Below are positions 1 to 9,546 of a stretch of 14,294 nucleotides of DNA, one piece after another (position 1 is the first letter of the stretch; every line of letters starts with the position of its first letter). The notes under the pieces were generated by a model. The model searched no databases. It was not told where the DNA came from and worked only from the letters and a program-made list of their open reading frames with translations. Made by a program: the position numbers and the translations under genes. Source of the stretch: Burkholderiaceae bacterium (GTDB lineage Bacteria; Pseudomonadota; Gammaproteobacteria; Burkholderiales; Burkholderiaceae_C); contig JAGOBT010000025.1 of assembly GCA_017999135.1 (NCBI GenBank), forward strand, positions 1 to 14,294, given 5' to 3'.

Positions 1-1678
1 AGTAGCCCTGGCCCTTCTGGCTCTGCAGCGCTTGCAGCACCTGCGCCTGGCCGGGCGTCTCGATGCCCTCAGCCACCGTGCCCATGCCCAGGCTCTGCGC
101 CACTTCCACCGTGGCCTTCACCAGCGCGCGGTGGTGGGCGCTGGTCTCCAGCTGGCTGACGAACGACCGGTCGATCTTCACCAGATCCACCGGCAACTGG
201 TGCAGGCTGGACAGCGAGGAGTAGCCGGTGCCGAAGTCGTCGAGCGCCAAGCTCAGGCCCAGCGCCTTCAGGGCCTGCAGGCGGTCGCGCACCGTGTCGT
301 CCTGCGCGGCCAGGCTCTCGGTCACTTCCAGCTGCAGGGCTGTGGCCGGCATGGCACTGGCCCGCAGGGCCCGCTGCACCTGGGCCACCAGTTGCGGGTC
401 GGCCAGTTGCGCGCGCGACAGGTTCACCGACAGGCCCTGCGGCGCCAGCGCCCCCAGCGCCTGCCGCCATTGCATGAACTGCCGGCAGGCCGTCTCCAGC
501 ACGAACACGCCCAGCGCACCGATCAGCCCGGTCTGCTCGGCGATGTCGATGAACGCCAGCGGTGGCACCATGCCCCGCAGCCGGTGCTGCCAGCGCACCA
601 GCGCTTCCACCCCCACGGCGCTGCCGCCTCCGAGGGCGACGATGGGCTGGTAGACCACGAACAGCTCGCCCTGGTCGAGTGCCTGGCGCAGTTCGGTTTC
701 CACCAGGCCGCGGTAGGTGGCCCGCACTTTCATGGCGGGGTCGAACACCGCATGCCGGCCACCGCCGGCGCGCTTGGCTTCGCGCATGGCGATGCCGGCG
801 TCCTGCAGCACACTGTCGGCGTCGGCATCGGGCGCCGAGCCGCCCAGGCTGATGCCCACGCTGACTCCCAGGTGGAGCACCAGACCATCGATGTCGTACG
901 GCCGCGACAGCGCGTCGACCAGGCGCCTGGCGATGCGCTGCGCGTCGTCGGCGCCGCGCAGGCCTTCGAGCACCACCACGAATTCATCGCCGCCCAGGCG
1001 TGCCGCCGTCGACGCCGGCGGCACTGCCCGGCCCACCGCGTCGCCCGGGCGCAGCGTGGCGCCCAGGCGCTGGGCCATCTGCCGCAGCACGGCATCACCC
1101 TGCGCAGCGCCGTGGGCCAGGTTGACCTGGTTGAAGCGGTCGATGTTGATGAACAGCACGGCCATGGAGAGGTCGGGCTTGTCCTGCTGCAGTGCCAGCA
1201 TGCGGGCAATGTGCTCGCGCACCACGGCCCGGTTGGGCAGCGCGGTCAGCGCGTCGGTGCGGCCCAGGTCGCGCCGCTGGGCGGCCAGGCGGTGCTGCTC
1301 CTCGCGCACGGCGTGACTGACGTCGCTCAGGCTGCACATCAGGGTGGCATCGTCGAGGCGGGTGATGCTCAGCGCCAGCGTCTGCGGGGGCCGCCCCGCC
1401 GCCGCGGGCAGCGGCAGGCGCAGGGCGTCGCACACCACACTGCCCGGCGTGGTGTGCTGTGCCGCCAGCGCCCGCAGCCCCGGGGCCACCGGGGCCAGCA
1501 CATCGAACAGGTTGCCCAGGTCACCGGTGGGCACCAGCGGCATCAGCAGCTGCGCCGACATCGGGTTGATCATCGTCACCTCGCCGTCGGGCCGCGCCTG
1601 CAGCAGGCCGATGGGCGCACGGTAGAGAAACTCGATCAAGGCCTCGTAGGCCACCTGCTCCGGTGCCGGTGCTTGCAT
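1..1678 (-). CDS. PAS-GGDEF-EAL c-di-GMP signalling protein (3' end cut by window edge)
   Basis: Probable bifunctional c-di-GMP enzyme, making the messenger from GTP (GGDEF) and/or hydrolysing it (EAL). The 559 visible residues stay open to the left edge, where the last part of the EAL domain is lost. An N-terminal PAS domain (about 10-130) nearly copies that of the upstream gene. The GGDEF domain (about 145-310) has an intact GGDEF at 229-233. The EAL domain starts near 325, with E358-A-L at 358-360, SVNLSR, LEVTES, the DDFGTGYSS motif (D480, D481), KIDRSFV and AEGIET, so all usual metal and catalytic positions are present. The inhibitory RxxD (R210-D213) lies 15 residues before GGDEF instead of 5. 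No signal peptide or membrane segment is seen, so it should be cytosolic. The ATG lies 6 bases after the upstream stop; no clear Shine-Dalgarno is visible, which suggests translational coupling. Which activity dominates cannot be read from sequence. Confidence 0.93.
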   Translation of the reverse strand, partial: MQAPAPEQVAYEALIEFLYRAPIGLLQARPDGEVTMINPMSAQLLMPLVPTGDLGNLFDVLAPVAPGLRALAAQHTTPGSVVCDALRLPLPAAAGRPPQTLALSITRLDDATLMCSLSDVSHAVREEQHRLAAQRRDLGRTDALTALPNRAVVREHIARMLALQQDKPDLSMAVLFINIDRFNQVNLAHGAAQGDAVLRQMAQRLGATLRPGDAVGRAVPPASTAARLGGDEFVVVLEGLRGADDAQRIARRLVDALSRPYDIDGLVLHLGVSVGISLGGSAPDADADSVLQDAGIAMREAKRAGGGRHAVFDPAMKVRATYRGLVETELRQALDQGELFVVYQPIVALGGGSAVGVEALVRWQHRLRGMVPPLAFIDIAEQTGLIGALGVFVLETACRQFMQWRQALGALAPQGLSVNLSRAQLADPQLVAQVQRALRASAMPATALQLEVTESLAAQDDTVRDRLQALKALGLSLALDDFGTGYSSLSSLHQLPVDLVKIDRSFVSQLETSAHHRALVKATVEVAQSLGMGTVAEGIETPGQAQVLQALQSQKGQGY

Positions 1679-1684
1679 GGGCCG

Positions 1685-3007
1685 TCAGCCAGCGAGGGCG
1701 GCATGGGCGGCATGCTGCAGCCCGGGCTGCCAGCATTCCACACGGTTGCGGCCCAGGGCCTTGGCCTGGTAGAGCGCCAGGTCGGCCCGCTGCATCAGCA
1801 TGGCCAGGCTGTCCACGTCGCCATCCATCGCGGCCACGCCAGCGCTCAGGGTGCAGCGGATCGGCAGGCCGTCCACCTGCACCGCCCGGTCGGCCATGGT
1901 CTGGCACAAGCGCCGGGCGGCTGCCACCGCGCCGTCCAGGGTGGTGCCGGGCAGCAGCACCAGAAACTCTTCGCCGCCGCTGCGGGCCACCAGGTCCAGG
2001 TTGCGGAAGGTGGCACCCAGGCCGGCGGCCAGGTGGCGCAGCACCGCGTCGCCCGCCGCATGGCCGTGGCGGTCGTTGATCTGCTTGAAGTGGTCGGCGT
2101 CGAAGGCCACCAGCGCCAGCGGCCGGGGCTGGCGCTGCCAGCGGTGCAGTTCCAGCTCGGCGGCTTCGAAGAAGGCACGCCGGTTGGCCAGGCCGGTGAG
2201 GTGGTCGCACAGCACCGACCGGCGCAGCGCCTCGTTGGCCTCGCGCCGCTCGGTGATGTCGCGAATGATCAGGCTGTAGGCGCGGTCCGCCGGCCGGTCG
2301 TCGCCCGGCGCATGCAGCGGCGCAATCAGACAGCTGCCCCAGAAGCAGCTGCCATCGGCGCGGCAGCGCCAGCCTTCGTCCAGCGTCCAGCCGTGCAGGT
2401 CGGCTTCGTGCAGGCGGTCGGCCAGGCGCTGTGCGGGCATCTGGCCGTCCGGGTAGAACAGGGCCATCGACTGGCCGAGAACAGCGGCGCTGTCGTGCCC
2501 GCTCAGCCGCTCGACGCTGGCGTTCCAGGCCGTGACCTGCCCGGCAGCGTCCAGCGACAGCAGGGCGTAGTCATGGATGCTGCTGGCGATGGAGTGGATC
2601 CACGCCTGGCTGTGGCGCAGGGCGCGGTCGCGCTGCACGGACTGCGTCACGTCGCTGAGCACGGCCATCAGCCGGTCGCTGTCGAGCTTGAGCAGGGTGA
2701 GCGACAGCACCTGCGATCCGGTGTTCGGCCCGCCGGCGCCGCCGATGTGCAGGTGCACCCCCTCGCACACCATCCCGTGGCTGCCGGCGAAGCTGGCGGC
2801 GCGGTGTGCCAGGTCGGGTGCCACCGCCTGCAGGGCGGTGAACAGGTTGTCCAGTGCGCCGTCGGGCACCAGCGGCATCAGCAGCTGGGCGCACAGCGGG
2901 TTGACCATCAGGATCTCGCCGTCAGGCCGGGCCTGCACCAGGCCGATCGGCGCCATGTACAAGAACTGGAGCAGCGCCTCGTGCTCCTGTGCGGCCTGGT
3001 CGTCCAT
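1685..3007 (-). CDS. PAS-PAS-GGDEF diguanylate cyclase
   Basis: Predicted cytosolic diguanylate cyclase of 440 aa (2 GTP to c-di-GMP). PAS 1 covers about residues 8-125 and contains APIG and ARPDGE. PAS 2 with its C-terminal PAC part covers about 135-255 and ends in RDITERREANEAL, the usual linker into a GGDEF domain. The GGDEF domain (about 262-425) carries DHLTGLANRR, the metal and substrate segment FDADHFKQIND, the active variant GGEEF at 344-348, and the inhibitory-site RxxD (R335-D338) exactly 5 residues before it. It should therefore be active and product-inhibited. No transmembrane or haem/flavin signature is evident, so the PAS ligand is unknown. It sits 8 bases after the PYP-like gene and 6 bases before the GGDEF-EAL gene, which indicates one operon. 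Its first PAS shares about 35 of 48 aligned residues with that of the downstream protein. Confidence 0.94.
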   Translation of the reverse strand: MDDQAAQEHEALLQFLYMAPIGLVQARPDGEILMVNPLCAQLLMPLVPDGALDNLFTALQAVAPDLAHRAASFAGSHGMVCEGVHLHIGGAGGPNTGSQVLSLTLLKLDSDRLMAVLSDVTQSVQRDRALRHSQAWIHSIASSIHDYALLSLDAAGQVTAWNASVERLSGHDSAAVLGQSMALFYPDGQMPAQRLADRLHEADLHGWTLDEGWRCRADGSCFWGSCLIAPLHAPGDDRPADRAYSLIIRDITERREANEALRRSVLCDHLTGLANRRAFFEAAELELHRWQRQPRPLALVAFDADHFKQINDRHGHAAGDAVLRHLAAGLGATFRNLDLVARSGGEEFLVLLPGTTLDGAVAAARRLCQTMADRAVQVDGLPIRCTLSAGVAAMDGDVDSLAMLMQRADLALYQAKALGRNRVECWQPGLQHAAHAALAG

Positions 3008-3015
3008 CGCGTCGG

Positions 3016-3408
3016 TCAGGACGGGCGCTGCACCAGCACATAGCGCATGCCTTCACCGGGCTGCGACAGCAGCCGCAGCTGGACCTTGACCGGCCGCATG
3101 CGCAGCGTCAGCACGTAGTCGATGGTCATGTCCAGCGGCAGCGCCTGGGTGGCAGCGTCGGCGAAGCGTTGTGCCACCATGAAATTGTTCATGCACGGCG
3201 CCACCACGGTGAACAGCGGGTGGCCCAGCACCCGTTGCGGCGACAGGCCCGCCATGCGCGATTCCCACGTGTTGTAGCGCCGCACCAGGCCAGCGGCGTC
3301 GATGCCGATCACGCCGAATTCCAGTGCGTCCAGGTCGGCGTCGGACAACTGCTGCAACGCCGGCAGCAAGGCGGCATCGGTGAAGTGCGAGGCTTGCAGA
3401 ATGGTCAT
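3016..3408 (-). CDS. PYP-like single-domain PAS protein
   Basis: A 130-aa protein that aligns without gaps to photoactive yellow protein (PYP) through its core, at a constant offset of +3. The segment LDALEFGVIGIDAAG matches PYP LDGLAFGAIQLDGDG, and VAPC matches the PYP chromophore segment. C72 is at the position of PYP Cys69, which binds p-coumarate, Y45 at Tyr42 and E49 at Glu46. The positions of Thr50 and Arg52 are A53 and L55, so the chromophore pocket differs. The end (MRYVLVQR) matches the last PYP strand. I infer a small cytosolic sensor, first gene of a c-di-GMP operon. Whether it binds a chromophore is not shown, and no tyrosine ammonia-lyase or p-coumaroyl-CoA ligase gene lies in the window; it could be a non-photoactive PAS relative. 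An in-frame TGA lies 6 bases before the ATG, fixing the start. No Shine-Dalgarno is obvious. Confidence 0.85.
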   Translation of the reverse strand: MTILQASHFTDAALLPALQQLSDADLDALEFGVIGIDAAGLVRRYNTWESRMAGLSPQRVLGHPLFTVVAPCMNNFMVAQRFADAATQALPLDMTIDYVLTLRMRPVKVQLRLLSQPGEGMRYVLVQRPS

Positions 3409-3427
3409 GGCGGGTCAGGCTGGCAGT

Positions 3428-3447
3428 CGGCCTGCGGATGCAGGCCG
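3428..3447 (-). other. Hairpin in the leader of the PYP-like gene
   Basis: Perfect 8-bp stem with a 4-base loop, ending 20 bases before the PYP-like start codon. The arms are CGGCCTGC and GCAGGCCG. There is no T-run on either strand, so it is not a normal terminator. It shares the motif CCTGCATC with the neighbouring hairpin. Confidence 0.6.
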
Positions 3448-3474
3448 GTGGAGGTGCGGACGAGGTGCTGCTGC

Positions 3475-3499
3475 CCCTGCATCCAGCTGCGATGCAGGG
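3475..3499 (-). other. Second hairpin in the leader of the PYP-like gene
   Basis: Perfect 9-bp stem (CCCTGCATC / GATGCAGGG) with a 7-base loop, just after the predicted transcription start of the sigma-28-like promoter. It lacks a T-run, so a leader structure or a protein or RNA binding site is more likely than termination. The possibility that it is the weak 3' end of the DUF169 transcript remains. Confidence 0.6.
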
Positions 3500-3510
3500 A
3501 CCTCACCTTT

Positions 3511-3537
3511 CTATCGGCAGACTGGCACCAAACCTGA
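3511..3537 (-). promoter_or_regulatory. Sigma-28 (FliA)-like promoter for the PYP-like/GGDEF operon
   Basis: Minus-strand sequence TCAGGTTT, 11 bases, GCCGATAG. The enterobacterial sigma-28 consensus is TAAAGTTT-N11-GCCGATAA, so the match is 6/8 and 7/8 at the exact spacing. It lies in the intergenic gap and points into the PYP-like gene. Transcription would start near 3504, giving a leader of about 95 bases with both hairpins. I find no convincing sigma-70 promoter in this gap. Experimental support is absent. Confidence 0.6.
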
Positions 3538-3554
3538 AGCCCCGATCAGCGGAA

Positions 3555-4334
3555 TCAGCGCGCGCCGTAGCTGGCGGCCATGCCGGCGCGCACGTCGTTC
3601 TGCACGCCATAGGGCGGAATCGGGTAGCGCAGACCGTTGGCCGACAGGCGCTTCAAGCCTTCGACAGCCTGGGCCAGCTGCGCGGGCTTCAACGCCATCA
3701 GCAGTTCTTCATCGGGCACGCCGCCATAGCGCCGCTCAGGGAAGCACGGCAGCGCGAGGCTGGGCTCTCCGGTGGCCAGCGCCCGGCCCCAGCTGTCGGC
3801 ACAGGCCGATTCGCCCACCGCGCCCCATTCCAGCTTCTTGTAGCCCGCCCACTGCAGGCCGTTGATCAGCAGGATCATCTGCGCCGGGTTGGCGTAGACC
3901 AGGGCGATGTCGGGCGCCGGCAGCCGGCCGGCGGCCAGTGGCGACACCGCCATCGCGGTGTAGCGGCCGTGCGGCACGCAGGTCATCGCCTGCTGGTGGG
4001 CGGCGGCATCGGCCGGGGTGGCAAACCACACGCCGGTGAAGGCCTGGCCGGCCTGGAAGGTGGCGTCCTGCGGGGCCAGGCCGATCACCGCGCCGCACTG
4101 CTGGCCCACCAGGTCATCGACCGTGATGCCGACGGTGAAGCCCAGGCGGGCGGCCTGACCCACGATCTGGTCGGTGGTGTGCACCGTGCCCTTGGGTCGG
4201 CGGATCCTGGGCACGGCCAGCATGTCGTCCACCCGCTCGAACAACTGCATGGCGATGGGCGTGGTCTTGAGCCGCAGCAGGCGGAACAGGTCGTCGACCA
4301 GCGTGGCCAGATCCAGGGTGGGTGTGTCGGGCAT
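3555..4334 (-). CDS. DUF169 family protein, function unknown
   Basis: A 259-aa protein that I recognise as DUF169 (COG2043), a family without an established role. It starts with a helical segment (DLATLVDDLFRLLRLKTTPIAM). Family-like segments are CVPHGRYTAMAVSPLAAG (119-136), VYANPAQMILLINGLQW (146-162) and LPCFPERRYGGVPDEELLMALKP (195-217). Cysteines lie at 80, 119, 178 and 197. There is no signal peptide or membrane segment. The frame stays open upstream to 4475, but that would run through the tRNA terminator; ATG 4334 follows AGGTG after a 4-base gap and begins the conserved region, so I choose it. It stands alone between the tRNA terminator and the sensor operon. I see no clear promoter in 4335-4429. 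I cannot assign a substrate or pathway. Confidence 0.85.
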   Translation of the reverse strand: MPDTPTLDLATLVDDLFRLLRLKTTPIAMQLFERVDDMLAVPRIRRPKGTVHTTDQIVGQAARLGFTVGITVDDLVGQQCGAVIGLAPQDATFQAGQAFTGVWFATPADAAAHQQAMTCVPHGRYTAMAVSPLAAGRLPAPDIALVYANPAQMILLINGLQWAGYKKLEWGAVGESACADSWGRALATGEPSLALPCFPERRYGGVPDEELLMALKPAQLAQAVEGLKRLSANGLRYPIPPYGVQNDVRAGMAASYGAR

Positions 4335-4429
4335 GGGGCACCTGCGGGCAGTGATGGAGCCCCCATCATCCAGGCCCGCGCACGCGGCGATAGCCCGCTG
4401 GCGACAACTGCCGTGCCGCTGCCAACAAC

Positions 4430-4454
4430 AAAAAAGAGCACCGAAGTGCTCTTT
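4430..4454 (-). terminator. Rho-independent terminator after tRNA-Glu
   Basis: On the minus strand a 9-bp stem (AAAGAGCAC / GTGCTCTTT) closes a TTCG tetraloop and runs into six T residues (three of them in the stem), then G and TT. It lies 35 bases beyond the CCA end of tRNA-Glu and closes the tRNA transcript. Confidence 0.9.
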
Positions 4455-4489
4455 GCTTGCCACCGCCGCATGCATGCGGGCAGTGAATC

Positions 4490-4565
4490 TGGCGTCCCCT
4501 AGGGGATTCGAACCCCTGTAATCACCGTGAAAGGGTGGTGTCCTAGGCCTCTAGACGAAGGGGAC
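4490..4565 (-). tRNA. tRNA-Glu (anticodon UUC)
   Basis: 76 nt including an encoded CCA. It begins GTCCCCTTCGTCTAGAGG and folds as a cloverleaf, with anticodon stem-loop CACCC-TTTCACG-GTG carrying TTC at the anticodon, T-loop GGTTCGAATC and acceptor 3' strand GGGGAC-G-CCA. It closely matches the Escherichia coli tRNA-Glu sequence as I recall it. It lies 45 bases after tRNA-Ala on the same strand, just downstream of the gene for its own synthetase, gltX. Confidence 0.97.
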
Positions 4566-4583
4566 TGGTATTCACGACATCGT

Positions 4584-4698
<115 letters not shown>

Positions 4699-4709
4699 GC
4701 GAGTCCATG

Positions 4710-4739
4710 ACTATAGCACAGGCCTCAGACGTGCTGCAA
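4710..4739 (-). promoter_or_regulatory. Sigma-70 promoter for the tRNA pair
   Basis: The minus strand reads TTGCAG, 18 bases, then TATAGT preceded by TGC (an extended -10 element). The -35 lies inside the last codons of gltX. Transcription would begin near 4703, about 17 bases before tRNA-Ala. There is no terminator between gltX and the tRNAs, so read-through from gltX is also possible. Confidence 0.65.
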
Positions 4740-6122
4740 GCGTGCCAGAGCGGTGGTGCGGTCAAACAGCGCCACCACCGCGTCGACCGACGGCGTTTGC
4801 GTGCGCCCGCACAGCAGCGCACGCAGCGGCATGGCCAGCAACGGCATCTTCAGCTTGTGCTCCGCCAGGGTGTCCTTCAGGGCCAGCGCGATGCCGGCCT
4901 TGTCCCAGGGGCAGGCGGCCAGCCGGTCGCGCAGGCTGACCAGCGCCGGGCGCACCATGTCAGTCAGGTGGGCGGCCAAGTCTTCGGCCGTTGGCGTGAC
5001 CGGCGCAAAGTACATCTGCAGCCAATCGGCCAGATCGACCGTGGTGTTGCAGCGGTCCTTGAACAGCGCACACATCGCGGCCAGCCGGTCGTCTGCCGCC
5101 ACGGCCAGCCCGCGGCCGGCCAGCTGCGCTGCCACCAGGCCGGCCAGGCGCGCGTCGTCGGCCTGCTTGATGTAGTGGGCGTTCACCCAGGTGAGCTTGG
5201 CCGCGTCCCACTGTGCCGGGCTCTTGCTGAGGTGGCTGCCGTCGAACCAGGCCACCATCTGCGACAGGCTGAACAGTTCGTCGTCGCCGTGGCTCCAGCC
5301 CAGGCGGGCCAGGTAGTTCAGCATGGCCTCGGGCAGGTAGCCGTTCTCCTCGTAGGCCGTCACGCTGACGGCGCCGCGGCGCTTGCTCAGCTTCTGGCCG
5401 TCCTCGCCCAGGATCACCGGGCAGTGGCCGAACTGCGGCAGCGGCGCGCCCAGGGCGTTGAAGATGTTGATCTGCCAGGGCGTGTTGTTGATGTGCTCGT
5501 CACCCCGGAAGACATGGGTGATGCCCATGTCCCAGTCGTCGACCACCACGGCGAAGTTGTAGGTCGGCACGCCATCGGGCCGCAGGATGATCAGATCGTC
5601 GATCTCGGTGTTGCTGATGCTGATTGGGCCCTTGACCAGGTCGTTCCAGGTCACCACGCCGTCGGGCGGGTTGGCGAAGCGCACCACCGGCTGCACGCCA
5701 TCGGGCACTGCCGGCAGCAGCTTGCCCGGCGCCGGGCGCCAGCGGCCGTCGTAGCCGGTCTTTTCGCCGCGGGCCTTCTGGGCCTCGCGCATCGCGTCCA
5801 GCTCGGCGGGCGTGCACCAGCAGCGGTAGGCGGTGCCGGCGGCGATCATCTGCTCGACCACCGCGTGGTAGCGCGCCAGGCGCTGCATCTGGTAGACCGG
5901 GCCCTCGTCGTAGGTGAGCCCCAGCCAGCGCATCGACGCCAGGATCTGGTCCACCGAATCCTGCGTGCTGCGGGCCACGTCGGTGTCTTCGATGCGCAGC
6001 ACGAACTGGCCGCCATGGTGGCGCGCATAGGCCCAGGAATACAGCGCGGTGCGGGCGGTGCCCAGGTGCAGGAAGCCGGTGGGCGACGGGGCAATGCGGG
6101 TGCGGACGGTGGGAGTGGTCAT
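4725..6122 (-). CDS. gltX: Glutamyl-tRNA synthetase
   Basis: Cytosolic class I aminoacyl-tRNA synthetase that charges tRNA-Glu with glutamate using ATP. At 465 aa it has the usual family length. The ATP-binding HIGH-type motif is HLGT in [13 protein letters not shown] (residues 13-25), followed by RIEDTD (43-48). The second signature KLSKR is at 244-248. The catalytic core and the C-terminal anticodon-binding helical domain both look complete. C101-W-C103 corresponds to the first half of the zinc site of the E. coli enzyme, but the second half (Cys and His after YDGR) is replaced by W128-R-P, so zinc is probably not bound. The frame is open 33 codons further upstream into metZ; ATG 6122, 10 bases after the metZ stop and just before the conserved N-terminus, is the real start. 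No strong Shine-Dalgarno is present, in line with coupling to metZ. Its cognate tRNA-Glu lies just downstream. Confidence 0.97.
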
Positions 6123-7385: not shown

Positions 7386-8924
7386 TCAGGGCGCCTCGGC
7401 GCGGCTCTGCAGCGTCAGGCGGGTGCGGGCGTGGCTGTCTTCGTCGTCCTGGCGGGCGGCAGTGCGCTGGGCTTCGATGGCAGCGAAGTCGGCCACGCTG
7501 ACATCGCCGGTGATGTATTCGCCGTCGAAGCAGCTGGCCTCGAAACCGGCAATGGCCGGGTTCAACGCGCCCACCACCCGCTTCATCGCGTCCACGTCCT
7601 GGTAGATCAGTGCGTCGGCACCGATGAACTGGCGGATCTCCTCCAGGGTGCGGTTGTGGGCGATCAGTTCTTCCGACGTGGGCATGTCGATGCCGTAGAC
7701 ATTGGGATAACGCACCGGCGGTGCGGCCGACGCCATGTAGACCTTGCGTGCGCCGGCCTCGCGGGCCATCTGCACGATTTCCTTGCTGGTGGTGCCGCGC
7801 ACGATGCTGTCGTCCACGAGCAGCACGTTGCGGCCCTTGAACTCCACGCCGATGGCATTGAGCTTCTGGCGCACGCTCTTCTTGCGCGCCTGCTGGCCCG
7901 GCATGATGAAGGTGCGGCCCACGTAGCGGTTCTTCACGAACCCCTCGCGGTAAGGCTTGCCGATCTTCTGTGCCAGCTGCATGGCGCTGGGCCGGCTGCT
8001 TTCGGGGATGGGGATCACCACGTCGATGTCGCTGGGCGGCATGGTGTTGATCACCCGCTGGGCCAGCGTCTCGCCCAGGTTCAGCCGCGCCTGGTAGACC
8101 GAGATGCCGTCGATCACCGAATCGGGCCGGGCCAGGTACACGTACTCGAACATGCAGGGGTGCAGCTGCGGCGCGTCGGCGCACTGCTGGGCATGCACCT
8201 GGCCGGCCATGTCGATGAACAGCGCCTCACCGGGTGCCACGTCACGCACGGTGGTGTGGCCGGTGCCCTCGAGCGCCACGGTCTCGCTGGCGATCATGAT
8301 CTCCCGGCCACCGCCTTCGGCCGCCGGCAGGTCGGCCACACCGTAGACAAGCGGCCGGATGCCGTACGGATCCCGAAAGGCCAGCAGCCCGTAGCCGGCG
8401 ATCAGCGCGATGACTGCATACGAGCCGCGGATGCGCTTGTGCACCGCCCGCACGGCGCGGAACACCAACTCGGGGGTCAGCGGCACGTCGCGCCCGCTGC
8501 GCTCCATCTCGTGGGCCAGCACGTTGATCAGCACCTCGGTGTCGCTGCCGGTGTTGATGTGGCGGCGGTCGATGTCGAACAACTCGGTCTTCAGCGCGTG
8601 GGCGTTGGTCAGGTTGCCGTTGTGCACCAGCACGATGCCGTAGGGCGCGTTGACGTAGAACGGCTGGGCTTCTTCTTCATTGAAGGCGTTACCGGCCGTG
8701 GGGTAGCGCACCTGGCCCAGGCCCACCGGGCCGGGCAGCGCGCGCATGTTGCGGGTGCGGAACACGTCCTTCACCATGCCGCGGGCCTTGTGCATGAAGC
8801 ACTGCGTGCCCTGCATGGTGACGATGCCGGCCGCGTCCTGCCCACGGTGCTGCAGCAGCAGCAGCGCGTCGTAGATCAACTGGTTGACCGGCGCTTTGGA
8901 GATGACACCTACGATGCCGCACAT
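7386..8924 (-). CDS. purF: Amidophosphoribosyltransferase
   Basis: First committed step of purine synthesis: PRPP and glutamine give phosphoribosylamine. At 512 aa it is the E. coli-type length. The start MCGIVGV exposes Cys2, the glutaminase nucleophile, after Met removal; this and AGGA nine bases upstream fix the start, although the frame is open further back. [16 protein letters not shown] and NTGSDTE belong to the N-terminal glutaminase domain. The PRPP-binding motif [12 protein letters not shown] spans 367-378 in the C-terminal phosphoribosyltransferase domain. There is no N-terminal propeptide as in Fe-S-containing Bacillus-type enzymes. It lies after cvpA, the arrangement also seen in E. 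coli, and before metZ. I see no clear promoter in the 115-base gap upstream, so transcription probably comes from further up. Confidence 0.98.
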
Positions 8925-8963
8925 GGTGGAAAGTCCTGGAGGCTGAAGTAACGAACCCAAGCG

Positions 8964-9039
8964 AACGCCGCGGAACCGGCTTTGCCGGGCCGCTGGCGTT
9001 GCCCCCTTGAGGGGGCGCGCGCAGCGCGTAGGGGGAGGG
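8964..9039 (-). repeat. Intergenic G/C-rich palindromic repeat between cvpA and purF
   Basis: Two parts. At 9002-9035 lies a block with CCCCCTTGAGGGGG, a GCGC-rich palindrome and a final GGGGG. At 8964-9000 lies an imperfect hairpin (AACGCC-GCGG-CCGGC stem, TTT loop). The first part resembles the repeat between accD and folC in layout. Such elements are, to my knowledge, common between genes in Burkholderiales. It starts directly at the cvpA stop and may stabilise the upstream mRNA or attenuate read-through. Confidence 0.7.
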
Positions 9040-9546
9040 TCATAGGTATCGCGCCACCTCGGCCGGCAGCACCGGCTTGATGCCCTGCAGCGCCACCCGC
9101 AGCCAGGCTGCGCCCTGGCTATCCTGCCAGGGTTGGCTGCGCGCTGCCGGGGTGAAGGCCACCAGCGTGGCCAGCGCCAGCAGCAGCACGCCGCCGCGCG
9201 CCAGGCCGAAGGCGGCACCCAGCGTGCGGTCGATCAGGGTCAGCGGCGTGGCGTGCACCAGCAGCCGCACCAGGCGGGCCAGCAATGTCCAGCCGATCAG
9301 CACGCCGACGAAGGTGAGCGCAAATCCTGCGCCCAGGTTCAGCGCCGACCCCGGCAGCCCGATCGGCAGATGCGGCGCCACTTGCGCCGAGTACAACTGC
9401 GCGGCCACATAGGCCACCACCCAGCCCACCAGCGACATCAGCTCGAACACCAGGCCGCGCCACAGCCCCACCACCACCGACAGCGCCAGCACCGTCAGCA
9501 GAGTCCAGTCGACCCAGCCGAAGGTGGGCAGGGCGTTGTCGACCAT
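9040..9546 (-). CDS. cvpA: CvpA family inner-membrane protein
   Basis: A 168-aa protein with four predicted membrane segments (about 13-29, 32-53, 68-94, 107-132) and the family layout [21 protein letters not shown]...[11 protein letters not shown]. CvpA proteins are needed for colicin V production in E. coli and affect envelope stress tolerance; their molecular activity is unknown. The polar C-terminal tail should be cytoplasmic. A GTG directly before the ATG could serve as an alternative start, but ATG 9546 shares its A with the TGA of the SPOR gene (TGATG), a typical coupling signal. It lies directly before purF, as in many Proteobacteria. Confidence 0.92.

Follow-up and report, generated by a model that had tools for sequence, protein, structure and literature searches.

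A photoactive yellow protein homologue and two cyclic di-GMP enzymes sharing an unnamed PAS-fold domain form an operon that recurs across genera

The window analysed here, a stretch of 14,294 nucleotides of contig JAGOBT010000025.1 from a Burkholderiaceae bacterium (assembly GCA_017999135.1), contains an operon coding for a homologue of photoactive yellow protein (PYP) and two enzymes of cyclic di-GMP (c-di-GMP) turnover, named P2 and P3. Both enzymes begin with the same unnamed PAS-fold domain, called xPAS here, and the genes probably make up a clade C PYP module which steers c-di-GMP through the xPAS domains of the two co-made enzymes. The PYP homologue is a separate frame of 130 amino acids (3016–3408), followed by P2, an xPAS-PAS-GGDEF protein of 440 amino acids (1685–3007), and P3, an xPAS-GGDEF-EAL protein with 559 visible amino acids (2–1678) whose frame is open at the contig end. 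The spacers are 8 nt (3008–3015) between PYP and P2 and 6 nt (1679–1684) between P2 and P3. The open reading frames, all on the minus strand, thus bear out the three-gene run with gaps of 8 and 6 bases that was claimed in the initial annotation. Such an arrangement exceeds chance, as it recurs across many genera.

The xPAS domain is about 125 residues long. The copy in P2 (2633–3007, minus strand) has a predicted structure with a pLDDT of 90.6, on which xPAS is a PAS fold and a member of the PAS superfamily, and the copy in P3 (1289–1678, minus strand) is 50% identical to it. In none of the 73 family members scanned did xPAS match a Pfam model at an E value of 0.01; the xPAS profile showed no significant similarity to the PYP profile and no match to the PDB sequences up to an E value of 1. 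The two xPAS domains of one operon are 47–48% identical, the same as across operons, and the two copies are therefore old. In a few cases (P0002, P0003, and L078), two xPAS domains were found in one chain ahead of a single output. As xPAS is found at the N-terminus of cyclases, phosphodiesterases and kinases alike, it was read as the receiver of the PYP signal. The earlier suggestion that the signal perhaps passes to the N-terminal PAS domains was supported, the xPAS common to P2 and P3 being the likely receiver.

The recurrence of the gene set was examined at related loci, for which a scan of genome contigs found 206 PYP relatives and the best 80 were kept. An xPAS lies directly 3' of PYP on the same strand in 79 of the 80 loci, and the remaining one (L060) stops at a contig end. 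The distance between the PYP and xPAS profile matches was 3–90 nt in 78 loci and 271 nt in one. The commonest order after PYP was xPAS-(PAS)-GGDEF followed by xPAS-(GGDEF)-EAL; two or more xPAS domains occurred within 2.8 kb in 57 of the 74 loci whose 3' sequence exceeds 3.6 kb, and 51 operons remained after strict filtering for the complete set. The co-occurrence in relatives on which the initial annotation had staked its proposal was thus found, and the non-fused PYP-to-c-di-GMP gene set is conserved across them. The host labels in the 206-locus scan included Massilia, Duganella, Pseudoduganella, Variovorax, Rhodoferax, Methyloversatilis, Noviherbaspirillum and others, besides one bin each with the label Gemmatimonadaceae, Archangium or Pseudohongiella and two bearing the label Gammaproteobacteria; these bin labels may be wrong. 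Isolates carrying xPAS span several genera, namely Massilia, Duganella, Variovorax, Rhodoferax and Methyloversatilis.

Genome-wide samples gave a similarly close pairing. In an order-level sample of 399 genomes including that of the window (G000), where matches with E below 1e-20 were taken as strong and counted by hand, a strong PYP was found in 11 genomes and a strong xPAS in the same 11. Of 24 strong xPAS domains, 22 had a strong PYP no more than about 2.5 kb away and one was beside a partial PYP (G187:C110). In a family sample of 195 genomes, PYP was found in 37 and xPAS in 38, with 37 common to both. Here xPAS lies 23–81 nt downstream of 40 of the 41 strong PYP genes, the other (G496:C832) being at a contig end, and 67 of the 74 xPAS domains are within 3.5 kb behind PYP; the remaining seven are one at a contig end (G486), one beside a PYP fragment (G506), the orphan of G484, and four in P3-type genes of G433, G469, G490 and G507. 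These four genomes are of one genus and have the P3-type gene apart from their PYP–P2 pair. Among 398 phylum-level genomes, xPAS (E 1e-8) was found in two, G000 and G079; each of them has PYP and belongs to the order sample as well. In the family sample, none of 11 weaker PYPs (71–85 bits), termed clade-A-like from their scores, had an xPAS directly 3' as read by eye from the coordinates. A second, weaker-scoring PYP of this kind was present in 11 of the 195 family genomes, all among the 37 with a clade C PYP (hypergeometric p = 3e-9, uncorrected for kinship). The locus L041 (2291–4496) has the order PYP, ligase, PYP, P2, P3, in which the extra PYP is clade-A-like, and in L038, L083, L099 and L041 a second clade-A-like PYP adjoins a coumarate-ligase-like gene near the clade C operon.

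The PYP-xPAS pairing also holds where the output differs. The genome of the window has a second PYP (G000:C550, L017, 1645–4862) followed by an xPAS hybrid histidine kinase with the composition xPAS-PAS-PAS-HisKA-HATPase-REC and a sub-threshold Hpt match. This second PYP keeps the three chromophore residues and has Gln at the place of Pro68 (VAQC). The second PYP of G008 (C20) is likewise ahead of one long xPAS-histidine kinase protein; PYP is followed by an xPAS-kinase in L065 and L096, and xPAS-GGDEF-EAL is followed by an xPAS-kinase in L037 and L042. In a quick tree, the nearest relatives of the kinase-paired PYPs include enzyme-paired PYPs, with a modest support of 0.76 for the tested group.

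The best PDB match of the window PYP was 1mzu, the PYP domain of Ppr (E = 1.5e-20), followed by many chains of H. halophila PYP. It scored 80.7 bits with TIGR02373 (photo_yellow), which is under the curated cut-off of 143.05, and it is not filed under that equivalog; according to the available text of a published survey (Xing et al, 2022; PMC9664959), TIGR02373 misses most PYP homologues and recovers only about 20%. The same text takes an equivalent of Cys69 together with Tyr42 and Glu46 as the mark of the PYP family, and the window protein has these residues as Cys72 (codon 3193–3195), Tyr45 and Glu49. Met100 is kept as Met104, and the equivalents of Phe92, Phe96 and Trp119 are replaced by Ile96, Leu100 and Tyr123. 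By these residue marks, the window PYP is of the clade C type, for which the available part of the survey gives the same pattern of Met100 kept and Phe92, Phe96 and Trp119 not kept. The equivalents of Tyr42, Glu46 and Cys69 were present in 80 of 80 related loci, a count biased for the cysteine because one of the two scan patterns included it. Met104 was likewise found in all 80, Phe at position 100 in two, and Trp was absent among the residues listed at position 123. On one contig (P0121, two member sequences), a clade C PYP is joined in frame to the C-terminus of an AraC-type regulator.

The enzymes were typed by domains and motifs. Pfam located an ordinary PAS domain (PAS_9/PAS_4, 2249–2557) and a GGDEF domain (1742–2209) in P2, and a GGDEF domain (761–1258) and an EAL domain (2–694) in P3, all on the minus strand; with the first PAS recognised by its predicted fold, the initial reading of PAS-PAS-GGDEF and PAS-GGDEF-EAL proteins was correct. 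No phytochrome domain was detected by Pfam in PYP, P2 or P3. P2 has the features of a diguanylate cyclase (PF00990, 145.2 bits; GGEEF motif) with an RxxD I-site, RNLD, five residues ahead of GGEEF. P3 has those of an EAL phosphodiesterase (PF00563, 234.8 bits), with EALVRW and DDFGTG present and the C-terminal end beyond the contig; its GGDEF motif is retained without an RxxD I-site at the usual spacing, and a full-length relative in G008 has 599 amino acids. When 140 xPAS open frames from the 80 loci were classed partly by motifs, all 61 frames of the GGDEF-only (P2) type had an intact GG[DE]EF, and 56 of these had RxxD. The EAL (P3) type had the EAL signature in 68 of 68, partly by selection since this motif was used for the classing, DDFGTG in 65, an intact GG[DE]EF in 52 and RxxD in 6. 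The other frames were four kinases and seven unclassed ones of 60–357 amino acids (interrupted frames, frames at contig ends, and L106, in which no GGDEF was detected). The P2 type thus looks like a product-inhibited cyclase and the P3 type like a phosphodiesterase that is losing its GGDEF in some lineages. The initial annotation had proposed one dedicated cyclase and one dual enzyme; the dual role is doubtful from the motif counts of the P3 type, even with the GGDEF motif intact in the window P3, and a cyclase–phosphodiesterase pair is the better reading.

The initial annotation had left the choice between light and redox. A coumarate-ligase-like frame, defined by a phmmer score above 150 bits to two ligases whose own TIGR02372 scores are 318 and 321 bits against a cut-off of 334.7, was found near the operon in 27 of the 80 loci; a hand count put it within 250 nt 5' of PYP in 23 of these. 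Among 14 PYP-bearing genomes, five have a TIGR02372-type ligase at 266–322 bits, none reaching the cut-off; it is divergent beside the clade C operon in four, and in G403 it is beside a second PYP. The best TIGR02372 score in the other nine was at most 108 bits. The pocket residues of PYP are much alike whether or not a locus has the ligase. Because of the ligase adjacency in relatives and this unchanged pocket, light is favoured over redox, even though no dedicated chromophore gene was found in G000, and p-coumarate is our best guess for the ligand of the PYP family of these loci. In the genus of the window, p-coumarate may be taken up and activated by a general CoA ligase, its genes may have been overlooked because the genome is incomplete, or a different ligand may be used. 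An acyl-CoA synthetase cluster behind the operon of G008 was considered as a source of chromophore genes but found no support, its ligase matching best a general acyl-CoA synthetase model, at 725 bits and so under that model's cut-off of 777. A second match to the lyase model PF00221 was found in G292 and G403; that of G292 scores under the HutH cut-off, and its closest model is one for tyrosine ammonia-lyase, whose cut-off it also misses by far. G052 and G277 (99% and 94% complete), which are PYP-bearing, gave no aromatic amino acid lyase match.

In the mechanism that we propose, Cys72 of PYP (which corresponds to Cys69 of the H. halophila protein) would hold a p-coumaroyl thioester, blue light would alter the shape of PYP, and PYP in one of its two states would dock on the N-terminal xPAS of P2 and P3. 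With P2 acting as a cyclase carrying the product-inhibition site RxxD and P3 as a phosphodiesterase, one light receptor would set the balance between making and breaking of c-di-GMP, probably for the control of surface attachment or motility. Both the PYP–xPAS contact and the light response are inferred. A wider statement, that xPAS is a dedicated receiver of clade C PYP through which one trans-acting light receptor is coupled to interchangeable outputs (cyclase, phosphodiesterase, and hybrid histidine kinase), often as two opposed enzymes, is in our judgement slightly better than an even bet.

Several observations weigh against these proposals, which were set against three other explanations. 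The PYP-like protein might sense a non-light cue, such as the thiol or redox state or a small ligand at Cys72, and feed the same xPAS enzymes. A TIGR02372-type ligase was not found in G000 (best 47 bits in a genome 71% complete) or in the 99%-complete G008 (50 bits), nor was a tyrosine ammonia-lyase in either, each having one PF00221 match which is HutH over its cut-off; no PF00221 lyase was found in 6 of the 14 PYP-bearing genomes, G052 and G277 being among them. Clade C PYPs also lack the Phe92, Phe96 and Trp119 equivalents, that is, the aromatic residues around the pocket are changed, and no clade C member has been characterised so far according to the available text of PMC9664959; the bias in the cysteine count mentioned above also tells against the proposed module. 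We consider a non-light sensor unlikely, however, since the pocket is nearly identical in loci with and without the coumarate-ligase-like gene, the presence of that gene in 27 loci makes p-coumarate the likely family ligand, and p-coumarate could be taken up and perhaps activated by general CoA ligases, G000 having 26 weak TIGR02372 matches.

The contact between PYP and xPAS might also be absent, with the proteins sharing only an operon, xPAS binding its own ligand or dimerising the enzymes and PYP reporting elsewhere. A mirror-tree comparison of the 51 full operons gave no specific PYP–xPAS signal (0.74 and 0.76, vs 0.74 for GGDEF and 0.75 for EAL), and no PYP–xPAS fusion was found among 1615 candidates, the sole longer PYP protein being the AraC–PYP, in a search that depends on shared five-residue words. 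The proteins with two xPAS domains would suit a dimerising role, and two xPAS genes are orphans, G484 being without PYP and the strong xPAS of G187:C41 without PYP nearby. The pairing has further exceptions in the strong PYP match of G403:C1 (E = 2.9e-24), which looks clade-A-like by its low score, and in four weaker PYP matches of G148 (best 4.1e-17), all without an adjoining xPAS, and the genome searches scored no more than the top candidates from an initial pass. Nevertheless, strong xPAS is almost absent from sampled genomes without a clade C PYP, and PYP keeps its xPAS neighbour where a histidine kinase is the output or the P3 gene has moved away, so a shared operon with no contact is quite unlikely in our view. 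That the module in this strain is a decaying remnant without function would agree with the finding of PYP in 4 of 21 genomes of the genus and with the sister genome G006 of the same genus, which retains only fragments at the orthologous place (G006:C129, L021, about 8440–9100), namely a PYP without the cysteine region and a truncated P2. Yet all three window frames are open (P3 as far as the contig end), the checked catalytic motifs are present and full operon copies exist in G008 and G009, which makes decay very improbable. No clear link with phototrophy emerged in the genus, where reaction-centre genes are present in 2 of the 4 genomes with PYP and in 4 of the 17 others. The steering of c-di-GMP by PYP through xPAS thus remains the reading that we prefer.

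A DUF169 gene on the same strand (3555–4334; by inspection, the second ATG of the 3555–4475 frame is its likelier start) ends 146 nt 5' of PYP, and the transcript may therefore begin ahead of it, with DUF169 as its possible first gene. The gap itself (3409–3554) has no sigma-70-like promoter in the scan. The promoter candidate which the initial annotation placed before the first gene only could not be recovered, as a consensus scan of 1–4800 gave no sigma-70-like site (0 found, 0.4 expected). DUF169 as a part of the module was rejected, since none was seen adjoining the G009 copy. Further 5' are a tRNA-Glu and a tRNA-Ala gene (4490–4565 and 4611–4686, minus strand), then a terminator-like site (4454–4433), then the DUF169 gene; two terminator-like sites were found in 1–4800 against 1.4 expected by chance.

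The operon belongs to a kind of gene set that has already been published. In the available texts, clade C PYPs often adjoin GGDEF genes and a light-to-c-di-GMP link has been proposed for them (PMC9664959), and GGDEF proteins are reported in 29 predicted pyp operons, downstream and often with EAL (Dohmen et al, 2025; PMC12826048). The window PYP resembles the Burkholderiales clade C PYPs of the former (PMC9664959) in being single-domain, in keeping Tyr42, Glu46, Cys69 and Met100 and losing Phe92, Phe96 and Trp119, and in its GGDEF neighbours. For Idiomarina loihiensis, an effect of a split PYP on biofilm formation under blue light is reported, and the adjacent GGDEF protein is its proposed partner (PMC9664959; PMC12826048); this PYP is of clade A, unlike that of the window. 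Ppd (PYP-phytochrome-GGDEF-EAL), as the same texts present it, shares the PYP input and c-di-GMP output but is one fused chain with a bilin domain, whereas the window PYP is a separate frame, and a Ppd-type fusion was thus not found.

What is new here is xPAS, through which the free-standing PYP may pass its signal to its effectors. The available portion of PMC9664959 does not describe the common N-terminal PAS of the partners, the cyclase–phosphodiesterase pair or the near-exclusive pairing with PYP, and that of PMC12826048 counts the operons by output domain and describes no receiver domain. Thus, xPAS seems not to have been described previously, as far as literature searches go, subscription journals being mostly outside their reach. 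In their available texts, signal transfer from single-domain PYPs is termed unknown (PMC9664959) and an important gap (PMC12826048). If the proposed contact is true, xPAS would be the missing step between free-standing PYP and effectors; it offers a concrete, small candidate partner that is directly testable in vitro, and PYP–xPAS, if right, would be a portable light-controlled docking pair for tools.

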